Positions 14,142 to 50,433 of a stretch of DNA of 64,000 bases are shown one piece after another (the first letter of the stretch is position 1; every line of letters starts with the position of its first letter). The stretch spans positions 1 to 64,000 of the forward strand of contig NZ_JANQOM010000038.1 of assembly GCF_028289625.1 (NCBI RefSeq), read 5' to 3'. The DNA comes from Winogradskyella sp. (GTDB taxonomy: Bacteria > Bacteroidota > Bacteroidia > Flavobacteriales > Flavobacteriaceae). A program made the position numbers and the translations under genes. The notes beneath the pieces were generated by a model that saw nothing but the letters and a program-made list of their open reading frames with translations, made no database searches and had not been told where the DNA came from.

Positions 14142-14245
14142 GTGCTCTCGTTATTAAATACTTGATTATCTCAAAAGTACTTAAAATACTAAGAAAAATT
14201 GCCTAAGGATTCCTTAAAATTATCAACAAAAAGGATGCCACATTA

Positions 14246-14301
14246 AAGTTAGAAGTATGAAGTTAGAAGTACGAAGTTGGAATTTGGTATTGGGTATTTG
14301 A
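14246..14301. repeat. Degenerate heptanucleotide array (AAGTNNG)n
   Basis: AAGT at 14246, 14253, 14260, 14267, 14274 (exact 7-nt period), decaying into AATTTGG/TATTGGG/TATTTGA. Confidence 0.8.
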
Positions 14302-14320
14302 AAGTCAATTATTATTTCAA

Positions 14321-14386
14321 ACTGAATACTGACCACTGTATACTGTCAACTGTAACTGCCTACTGATTACTGAGCACTGCTTACTG
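14321..14386. repeat. Degenerate heptanucleotide array (ACTGNNN)n
   Basis: ACTG at 14321, 14328, 14335, 14342, 14349, 14355, 14362, 14369, 14376, 14383; ends at the ribH stop codon. Confidence 0.88.
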
Positions 14387-14893
14387 CTACTTAGTATCTT
14401 TCCGTAATTGAGCCATTTTTATTGCAGTAATAGCCGCTTCCATACCTTTGTTGCCATGCTTTCCTCCGGAACGTTCTATAGATTGTTGCATATTGTTATC
14501 TGTTAGCACACAGAAGATGACCGGAATGTCTCCTTTGACATTTAAATCCTTTATCCCTTGAGTAACTCCCTCACAAACAAAATCGAAGTGTTTGGTTTCT
14601 CCTTGTATTACACAACCAATAACAATGATGGCGTCTAACATGCCAGACTCGGCGTAGATACTTTTTGACATCCTAGCAGCACCATAAGTCAATTCAAAGG
14701 TCCCAGGAACATTCCAACGTACAATGTTCTCCTTCAAAGCACCACAATCGATTAAAGCATCGAATGCGCCTTGCCAAAGGCCTTCAGTAATAGTAGTATT
14801 CCATTCTGAAACAACAATCCCAAACCGAAAATCTTTCGCATTTGGGATTGTGGCTTTATCGTAATTCGATAAATTATGATTTGCAGTAGCCAT
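14387..14893 (-). CDS. ribH: 6,7-dimethyl-8-ribityllumazine synthase
   Basis: FRFGIVVSEWNTTITEGL, VPGTFELTYGA, GCVIQGETKHFDFVCEGV. Confidence 0.96.
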   Translation of the reverse strand: MATANHNLSNYDKATIPNAKDFRFGIVVSEWNTTITEGLWQGAFDALIDCGALKENIVRWNVPGTFELTYGAARMSKSIYAESGMLDAIIVIGCVIQGETKHFDFVCEGVTQGIKDLNVKGDIPVIFCVLTDNNMQQSIERSGGKHGNKGMEAAITAIKMAQLRKDTK

Positions 14894-47979: not shown

Positions 47980-48777
47980 ATGAAATTTATTTCAAGCCCA
48001 CAAAATCCTTTGGTTAAACGCCTTATGCTTTTAAAAGAAAAATCGCGAGAGCGCAAAAAGACTAATACGTTTTTAATAGAAGGCAAACGTGAGTTATCCT
48101 TAGCCATAAAAGGTGGTTACACCATCGAAACCTTATTATTTTATCCTAATCTTTTTTCTGAAAGTGAAGCTAACGCTATGAGCCGTTACGGTATTGATAT
48201 CATTGAAATTTCTAAAGACGTTTTTCAAAAATTAGCACATCGCGATACGACTGAAGGAGTCATTGCTGTAGTGAAATCAAAATCTCACGAATTGGAAAGT
48301 CTCAACTTTAAATCTAAAAATCCACTTATTTTAGTAGCCGAAGCACCAGAAAAACCCGGGAATGTTGGTGCCTTGCTCAGAACTGCGGATGCTGCTAATA
48401 TTGATGCTGTGATTATTGCCAATCCAAAGTCTGATTTATATAACCCAAACATTATTCGCTCTAGTGTAGGCAGTGTATTTACTACAGAAATTGCTGTGGC
48501 TAGCTCTGAAGAAGCGATTGCATTTTTGCAGAAATACAATTTCAATATTTTTTCTGCAATATTACAAGAATCGGAGCCATACCATACACAAGATTACACC
48601 TTACCAACTGCCATTGTGGTTGGCACCGAAGCTACAGGATTAACGGAAATCTGGAGAGATGCAGCAACAAAAAACATTAGTATTCCCATGCAAGGAGTTA
48701 TTGATTCCATGAATGTCTCTGTTGCCGCAGGAATTCTTATTTTTGAAGCTATTCGCCAAAGGCGAATTAATGAGTAA
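47980..48777 (+). CDS. TrmH/SpoU family RNA methyltransferase
   Basis: MKFISSPQNPLVKRLMLLKEKSRERKKTNTFLIEGKRE; APEKPGNVGALLRTADA; NIIRSSVGSVFT; VGTEATGLTE; IPMQGVIDSMNVSVAAGIL. Confidence 0.94.
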   Translation: MKFISSPQNPLVKRLMLLKEKSRERKKTNTFLIEGKRELSLAIKGGYTIETLLFYPNLFSESEANAMSRYGIDIIEISKDVFQKLAHRDTTEGVIAVVKSKSHELESLNFKSKNPLILVAEAPEKPGNVGALLRTADAANIDAVIIANPKSDLYNPNIIRSSVGSVFTTEIAVASSEEAIAFLQKYNFNIFSAILQESEPYHTQDYTLPTAIVVGTEATGLTEIWRDAATKNISIPMQGVIDSMNVSVAAGILIFEAIRQRRINE

Positions 48778-48822
48778 TTAATAATTGGTAATGTGTAATT
48801 AGTAACTTGTAATAAGTAATGA
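48774..48822. repeat. Degenerate heptanucleotide array (GTAATNN)n, left flank of four-helix-bundle gene
   Basis: GTAATTA ATAATTG GTAATGT GTAATTA GTAACTT GTAATAA GTAATGA, 7 contiguous 7-mers running into the ATG at 48819. Confidence 0.82.
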
Positions 48823-49163
48823 AAGAGAATATAATTGCCTCCAAAAGCTATGATTTTGCAGTAAGAATAGTTTTATTAAACAAAGATTTAATTGCTAAAA
48901 ATGAATATGTTTTATCGAAACAAATCCTTAAATCAGGAACGTCAATTGGCGCAAATGTAGAGGAAGCCATAGGCGGCATCTCTAAGAAAGATTTTAGAGC
49001 AAAAATGTCAATATCCTATAAAGAAGCTAGAGAAACCCATTATTGGCTCAGATTACTAAAAGATACCAATTACATTAATCTGGAAGAATATGAAAAATTG
49101 GAAAGCGAGCTTTCAAGTATTCTAAAGATACTTTTCAAAATTATTCAATCCTCTAAAGAATAA
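48819..49163 (+). CDS. Four helix bundle protein (S23 / 23S rRNA IVS-encoded family, Avd-like fold)
   Basis: SYDFAVRIVLLNKDLIAKNEYVLSKQILKSGTSIGANVEEAIGGISKKDFRAKMSISYKEARETHYWLRLLKDTN. Confidence 0.92.
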   Translation: MKENIIASKSYDFAVRIVLLNKDLIAKNEYVLSKQILKSGTSIGANVEEAIGGISKKDFRAKMSISYKEARETHYWLRLLKDTNYINLEEYEKLESELSSILKILFKIIQSSKE

Positions 49164-49169
49164 AGAACT

Positions 49170-49197
49170 ATTAATTATTCATCATTAATTACTAATT
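49170..49197. repeat. Degenerate heptanucleotide array, right flank of four-helix-bundle gene (opposite orientation)
   Basis: ATTAATT ATTCATC ATTAATT ACTAATT; revcomp of 49181-49200 matches 48766-48785 at 18/20. Confidence 0.7.
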
Positions 49198-49200
49198 AAT

Positions 49201-50433
49201 ATGAGCGCAGCGAATCTTTTCTACATCATAATCGGGATAATCATCGTCAACTTCATGAAAGACAAAATCCTAAATGCTATAAATGCCAAACATTTTAATG
49301 ATTCCATTCCAGACGAATTGAATGATGTGTATGATACCGAAGAATATAAAAAATCTCAAGACTATAAAGCCACGAATTATAGATTTGGCATATGGTCTTC
49401 CCTATTCTCTTTAGTATTAACGCTAGCATTTTTGTTTTTAGATGGGTTTGAGTTTGTGGATGATTTAGCAAGAAACTATTCCGATAAGCCTGTGGCTGTA
49501 GCTCTTATATTTTTTGGCATTATCATGTTGGCAAGTGATATTATCACTATACCTTTTGGGTATTACAAAACCTTTGTGATTGAAGAACGGTTCGGTTTTA
49601 ATAAGACCACGAAAAAGACTTTTATCCTAGACAAGTTTAAAGGCTTATTAATGATGGCCATTCTAGGAGGAGGAATTATTGCTCTTATTGTTTGGTTTTA
49701 TGAACTTACAGGCAATAAATTCTGGCTTTATGCTTGGGGTATTGTCACAGTTTTTACTGTGTTTATGAATATGTTTTATTCGAGGTTAATCGTACCTTTA
49801 TTCAATAAGCAAAGCCCATTGGAAGAAGGAGACTTACGTCAAAAAATTTCAGACTATGCCAAATCGGTTGGTTTTAGTTTGAAAAAGATTTTCATTATCG
49901 ATGGTTCTAAACGAAGCACTAAAGCCAATGCCTATTTTTCTGGTTTTGGCAGTGAAAAACGTGTCACACTATATGATACATTGATTAATGATTTAGAAGA
50001 TGAAGAAATCGTAGCGGTTTTAGCTCACGAAGTTGGGCATTATAAGCGCAAGCATATTATTTTTAACTTGGTAACGTCTATCTTATTGACTGGATTAACC
50101 CTTTATATTCTCTCTATTTTTATTTCTAATCCTTTGCTGTCTAATGCTATTGGAGTTGAAACACCGAGTTTTCATGTTGGGTTGATCGCCTTTGGCCTAC
50201 TCTACTCACCAATATCTGAAGTCACTGGATTAATTATGAATTATGTCTCTCGTGTCTTCGAATACCAAGCTGACAATTATGCAAAAAACACCTACAAGGC
50301 AGAACCCCTGATTAGTTCCTTAAAAAAATTATCGAAGAATAGCTTAAGTAATCTTACGCCTCATAAAGCTTATGTCTTTATGCATTATTCGCATCCTACA
50401 CTTTTGGATAGGGTTAGAAATTTGAGAAATTAA
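49201..50433 (+). CDS. M48 family metallopeptidase (Ste24-like)
   Basis: AVLAHEVGHYKRKHIIFNL, FGFNKTTKKTFILDKFKG, EYQADNYA. Confidence 0.94.
   Translation: MSAANLFYIIIGIIIVNFMKDKILNAINAKHFNDSIPDELNDVYDTEEYKKSQDYKATNYRFGIWSSLFSLVLTLAFLFLDGFEFVDDLARNYSDKPVAVALIFFGIIMLASDIITIPFGYYKTFVIEERFGFNKTTKKTFILDKFKGLLMMAILGGGIIALIVWFYELTGNKFWLYAWGIVTVFTVFMNMFYSRLIVPLFNKQSPLEEGDLRQKISDYAKSVGFSLKKIFIIDGSKRSTKANAYFSGFGSEKRVTLYDTLINDLEDEEIVAVLAHEVGHYKRKHIIFNLVTSILLTGLTLYILSIFISNPLLSNAIGVETPSFHVGLIAFGLLYSPISEVTGLIMNYVSRVFEYQADNYAKNTYKAEPLISSLKKLSKNSLSNLTPHKAYVFMHYSHPTLLDRVRNLRN

Follow-up and report, generated by a model that had tools for sequence, protein, structure and literature searches.

Here, we report that the two adjacent heptanucleotide arrays downstream of ribH in Winogradskyella sp. 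are, on the ribH strand, the arms of one inward-facing inverted pair, and we favour, at a probability of about 0.55, the reading that this pair is a gene-less member of a class of S23/IVS-type heptad elements, whose letters and copy number have been turned over by slippage. The window, meaning the whole stretch of DNA that was analysed, comprises 64,000 nt (positions 1 to 64,000 of contig NZ_JANQOM010000038.1), and the ribH site within it is laid out as follows.

14161..14240, minus strand: conserved stretch past the distal arm (GGCATCCTTTTTGTTGATAATTTTAAGGAATCCTTA...), kept among congeners, the fixed border of the hypervariable site
14243..14303, plus strand: ribH-distal arm, AAGTNNG five times at 7-nt steps, then in-phase decay, facing the proximal arm
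14304..14320: gene-free spacer of about 17 nt between the arms
14321..14386, minus strand: ribH-proximal arm, ten units starting from the ribH stop, CAGTNNN on the ribH strand (ACTGNNN on the plus strand)
14387..14893, minus strand: ribH (6,7-dimethyl-8-ribityllumazine synthase; PF00885, E 1.5e-50), its stop touching the proximal arm

The conserved stretch at 14161..14240 probably serves as promoter region for the genes that follow. The periodicity given in the preliminary description was confirmed letter by letter: AAGT occurs five times at exact 7-nt steps (14246, 14253, 14260, 14267 and 14274), and ACTG ten times (14321, 14328, 14335, 14342, 14349, 14355, 14362, 14369, 14376 and 14383) at steps of 7,7,7,7,6,7,7,7,7, with the last ACTG abutting the ribH stop (14387-14389, minus strand). 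Lag-7 matching peaked at the ribH arrays, with 32/42 against 22-26 in 20 Markov shuffles, and lags 7, 14 and 21 were the only ones above chance among lags 2-30 in the window. Four ACTG words at exact 7-nt steps with at most two mismatches were expected 0.02 times per window, while five overlapping matches were observed. The ten ACTG units also carry the four fixed and three nearly free positions that had been described, with per-phase mismatches to the majority letter of 0,0,0,0,6,7,4; uniform decay would leave four phases intact and place all 17 departures in the remaining three with a P of at most 6e-8, which is an upper bound. The unit positions of the window array are therefore not all alike, as they are in the perfect microsatellites of several congeners at the same site, and its units are ACTGNNN with varied NNN, not exactly TAACTGA.

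Read on the ribH strand, the site runs from the stop codon through ten CAGTNNN units and a short spacer into the reverse complement of the AAGTNNG array. The arrays had been presented as two with different consensus; given that they form an inward-facing inverted pair on this strand, we correct this to two arms that are not independent, with cores, CAGT and AAGT, one letter apart. Because cores and spacers differ, the arms fail to align in the window itself (alignment score 12, not above background; null 95th percentile 13), and the case for their pairing rests on relatives, in which the orientation of the two related-core arrays is kept.

We compared 30 ribH loci, those of 29 congeners and the window. 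Near the ribH stop, CAGT occurred 64 times and ACTG twice, while in the far half of the site ACTG occurred 82 times and CAGT four times; CAGT was proximal in 20/30 ribH loci of the genus. With the two richest species excluded, AG recurred at lag 7 in the first 60 nt 44 times, against a shuffle mean of 2.3. Several congeners carry perfect far arms, each built from its own unit (ACTGCTT, ACTGCAA, ACTGCTA, ACTGCAT, ACTGCAC or ACTGCCT) and followed by a conserved GGCATCCTTTTTG border; other congeners have degenerate or different heptads, and three loci (L031, L035 and L036) have a hairpin-forming sequence in place of the arrays; presence in the genus is patchy. Since the order is conserved while the units differ or are replaced among congeners, the ribH heptad site is old in the genus and turns over quickly.

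The alternative that survives best, possible if rather unlikely in our estimation, is a heptamer microsatellite with no tie to S23, in which slippage favours 7-nt steps and the gap 3′ of ribH tolerates growth, decay and regrowth of the array. Perfect arrays of variable copy number occur at the site, such as ACTGCTT with about eight copies in G011 and 17 in G034, and heptanucleotide repeats are reported to form the most frequent class of long SSRs in the majority of genomes surveyed, polymerase slippage being the proposed cause (Mrazek 2007, as cited in PMC4679880). The preliminary description had called the arrays unlike a slippage microsatellite and had named single-motif microsatellites in relatives as a finding that would speak against its inference. 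The first claim stands for the fixed core of the window array; the adverse finding was made in part, and slippage clearly acts at the ribH site since several congeners carry perfect single-motif arrays there. Against a microsatellite by itself stand the four letters kept fixed in the heterogeneous array of the window's genome (G000) and the conserved inverted orientation.

Heptad tracts with varied cores, which had been anticipated for this genome, do recur in G000 and its relatives, and 17/18 were intergenic in about 800 kb. This census combined pattern searches with about 800 kb of sampled stretches, and the density of tracts in the sampled G000 contigs differs from a genome average because these contigs were picked for S23 genes or an ACTG array. 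One further tract in G000 (G000:C5:3657-3720) repeats GGCTGTT perfectly about six times and is bordered by an FtsX-like gene and a small ORF resembling a lipoprotein gene.

The core word of the ribH pair has a family of its own. CAGTNNN repeated four times at exact 7-nt steps was found in 28/60 genomes, with 725 overlapping matches against 30 for the backwards pattern. Among the loci fetched, CAGT and ACTG arrays that neighbour each other on opposite strands within 700 nt pointed inward in 15 cases and outward in none, several of the 15 being one orthologous site. Four of these inward pairs enclose an S23 gene and are orthologues of one site (G017, G028, G030 and G036), where G011 likewise has arrays around the gene; at this one site, the ribH core word thus surrounds S23 in five close relatives, including G017, the sister of the window's species. 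The other 11 pairs hold no gene and have gaps of 3-87 nt; one lies between atpD and atpC in G005 (L382). Among the loci compared, pairs like that of ribH therefore exist both with and without S23. Moreover, the array module TTTAATTTTGC(NNACTGC)n, including its non-repeat flank TTTAATTTTGC, is common to the ribH site and others including panB, a sharing that speaks against a microsatellite. Given that both the CAGT...ACTG pairs and the TTTAATTTTGC module recur elsewhere, the ribH pair is one member of a dispersed family, some copies of which surround S23 genes. CAGT arrays mostly stand alone, and in G033 20 CAGT matches go with no S23 match; across the genus, CAGT matches correlate with S23 number at a rho of 0.54 (partial 0.38 after genome size), which kinship also confounds.

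Two further loci touch on this family. Besides the ribH pair, the window's genome has a CAGT/ACTG inverted heptad arrangement in its ATP synthase operon, where it lies between atpD and atpC as in G005 (L001; G000:C5:113620-113712). L387, considered as a second neighbourhood of CAGT and S23, was rejected, its profile match being weak and its protein looking sigma-factor-type.

S23 proteins are a pentameric four-helix-bundle family named after the 23S rRNA intervening sequences, and relatives solved in the PDB (2gsc and 2rld) have five chains each. The proteins are common in Bacteroidota and present in other phyla, and we know of no function for them. The window carries one such gene between two arrays.

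48765..48822, plus strand: upstream heptad array of the window S23 element, GTAATNN core
48819..49163, plus strand: S23/four-helix-bundle gene (PF05635 2.3e-28; TIGR02436 9.1e-30)
49154..49203, minus strand: downstream heptad array of the window S23 element, inverted relative to the upstream array

These two arrays gave an inverted alignment score of 17, against a null 95th percentile of 12-13, and for three of the four S23 genes in the window's genome, one flank or both hold heptad tracts above the lag-7 threshold. We then assembled S23 loci by protein score only, a choice blind to repeats: 93 came from 60 relatives, and 85 were obtained by scanning GTDB genomes. Lag-7 arrays lay upstream of S23 in 31/93 and 37/85 of these loci and downstream in 30/93 and 40/85, where shuffles gave about one expected. 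At lags 5, 6, 10, 11 and 12 the counts were 0-2, with lag 8 a weaker second, and the flanks of ordinary genes in three genomes showed a lag-7 array in 14/665 and 15/665 cases. Arrays on both flanks were found for 43/178 S23 loci against 1/665 ordinary genes (Fisher 4e-30), and for 19/59 groups when S23 loci with related neighbours were merged; more than half of the S23 loci have no clear lag-7 array at the threshold used. The earlier hunch that four-helix-bundle genes lie near such tracts was thus borne out, and a tie of this strength speaks against a microsatellite origin. Core similarity between the upstream and downstream arrays of the same locus was 2.51 in inverted and 1.17 in direct orientation, against 1.22 between loci, showing that S23-flanking arrays are inverted and have a core common to both flanks of one locus. 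Besides Bacteroidota, the GTDB scan included records labelled Ignavibacteriae, Acidobacteria, Verrucomicrobiia and Omnitrophota, the labels being those of draft and metagenome records. The tie between S23 and heptads, being period-specific and oriented, offers a first substrate candidate for S23 and makes the old question of the role of IVS proteins directly testable, and the heptamer repeats reported here and there from bacteria may share this setting.

Two stricter rules were tried and dropped. Among non-syntenic loci, S23 sequence and core co-varied weakly (Mantel 65/500), and we therefore claim no recognition code between them. Four fixed phases were a mild tendency and not a rule across S23 arrays, with 18/125 above the 95% neutral limit and four arrays with four clean phases against 0.9 expected, so that the ribH array is extreme in this respect. 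Separately, one S23 gene (L051, in G014) departs from the inverted arrangement, the long heptad arrays on its flanks running in the same direction (ATCACGAACAACGA...).

Orthologous sites allowed S23 genes and arrays to be followed together. At the trmH-type gene of the window, S23 and arrays are present in G000, G001 and G023 and absent in the 21 other congeners read. In a three-protein tree, G017, the sister of G000, has no S23 at this site, and neither has G010, which stands beside G001 and G023; therefore, more than one event, gain or loss, is needed there. Between prfA and pyrF, S23 and arrays are present in G000 and G013, and the 21 other congeners read have no S23, many of them carrying a short intrinsic terminator; G037, from another family, has a gene-less inverted heptad pair. 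At these two sites, S23 and heptads are present or absent together. About a dozen congeners carry S23 at panB, their arrays being spaced at 7-9 nt. G009 has lost the S23 gene at panB; 38 nt matching its 3′ end and beyond sit between array remnants (score 26, null maximum 17) as the residue of the deleted gene. G003 and G005 have a CAGTAAG array at panB without S23.

The panB arrays of L261 and L270 consist mainly of 8-nt units (GATTGTTA and GATTGTTG), so the spacing beside S23 is mostly but not always 7. At prfA-pyrF in G017 and G012 (L331 and L338), a palindromic element, TGTCATTCCTGCGAA...GCAGGAATGACA, replaces the terminator or S23 element of other congeners, and at the trmH site in G017 and G009 (L279 and L280) the sequence ATGTCATTGCGAGGA... 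resembles another dispersed palindromic repeat.

We propose that these loci belong to a widespread class of intergenic elements, each of which would have two inward-facing arrays of units of about 7 nt with a fixed core of about four letters and free spacers, and which in complete form would enclose one S23 gene. At ribH, no S23 (PF05635) gene lies between the arms, and only a gene-less relative is claimed for this reason; S23 was found at the ribH site in none of the 30 loci examined, and ribH near S23 in none of the S23 loci fetched. The arrays may form the termini of an IVS-like element that is, or once was, mobile, and for which no target-site duplication or excision product was identified. 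Gene-less pairs could arise by internal deletion or by gene-free spread, as MITEs do from transposons, and slippage would then make the arms longer and more uniform in each species separately, without loss of the core. More speculatively, the core might be kept by a repetitive ring-shaped binder, with S23 as first candidate, each subunit of which could read a single core in single-stranded RNA or DNA, by analogy with TRAP. TRAP reads spaced NAG triplets. A bolder form of the proposal, which we consider improbable, makes S23 proteins the component that reads sequence in a large, so far overlooked class of bacterial mobile elements. These elements would end in spaced-core arrays instead of exact inverted repeats, each pentamer would read consecutive cores in single-stranded form, and gene-less pairs such as that of ribH would spread in trans.

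A quite improbable alternative is that the arrays act through RNA structure, the arms pairing in the ribH transcript through successive CAGU/ACUG helices, in the manner of a ladder, to serve as terminator, stabiliser or RNase III site. Such ladders, with 4-bp helices and 3-nt internal loops, do fold in L029, L033 and L038; the array site immediately precedes a conserved T run, real terminator hairpins occupy the ribH site in array-less congeners (L035 and L036) and many prfA-pyrF sites, and RNase III cuts the stem of the Coxiella IVS (PMC4990558). However, heptad-bearing 3′ regions fold near their shuffles (z about -1.9 to +1.6), and the window sequence has a z of -0.2 against -6.3 and -6.8 for true terminators. 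With z-scores near zero, a stable hairpin or terminator role of the ribH arrays was rejected; no terminator-like site, that is, a G+C-rich hairpin with a T run, was found in the window stretch, and an Rfam scan returned one chance-level match and nothing else. We rate as very improbable that the arrays are landing sites for a nucleic-acid-binding protein of the host, such as S1 or a cold-shock protein, that regulates the neighbouring genes. In its favour, the core is fixed while the spacer is free, and ACTG lies within TAACTGA, whose repeats in Beggiatoaceae have been proposed to regulate (PMC4679880); against it, the arrays are patchily present at the ribH site, and a single regulator is hard to reconcile with core words that vary among loci of one genome. 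The earlier suggestion of a protein on one face of the array was not supported, 7 nt not being a helical repeat and no array-specific protein code being detected.

Our preferred reading, a gene-less relative of S23 elements, has several counterparts among known repeats. Cyanobacterial STRR are degenerate or perfect 7-nt tandem units between genes, and the ribH arrays resemble them in all these points. As an analogue, STRR, which had been proposed from the window alone, hold for the repeats as such; the ribH arrays come closer to the TAACTGA heptamers (PMC4679880) and to the heptamer repeats next to the S23 ORF in the Coxiella IVS (PMC4990558). In the latter, an S23p ORF lies between terminal inverted repeats, with tandem direct GACAGAT heptamers by the start codon that vary in copy number among strains (PMC4990558). 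The Coxiella IVS differs in residing in the 23S rRNA gene, from which it is cut out by RNase III, whereas the elements described here lie between protein genes and have arrays on both sides with locus-specific cores; the ribH site in addition has no ORF, its arrays lie between protein genes, and no rRNA match was found in the stretch scanned. TAACTGA heptamers occur in Beggiatoaceae, Cyanobacteria and some Bacteroidetes (MacGregor, PMC4679880); they share with the ribH arrays an intergenic position, the word ACTG, patchiness in relatives and, in Gramella and Aequorivita, a mixture with other heptamers, but in the published description they are direct repeats of a single motif, most of which lie ahead of start codons (PMC4679880). 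The text of that paper mentions neither S23 nor intervening sequences, nor inverted array pairs as a class. A general link between S23 and heptads was not found elsewhere in the literature, covered mostly without subscription papers, and an earlier description is possible. The Avd proteins of diversity-generating retroelements belong to the same four-helix-bundle superfamily as S23 and are distant relatives only; one S23 protein of the window's genome matched their profiles NF033474 (1.9e-5) and PF22296 (2.9e-5), below both cut-offs.
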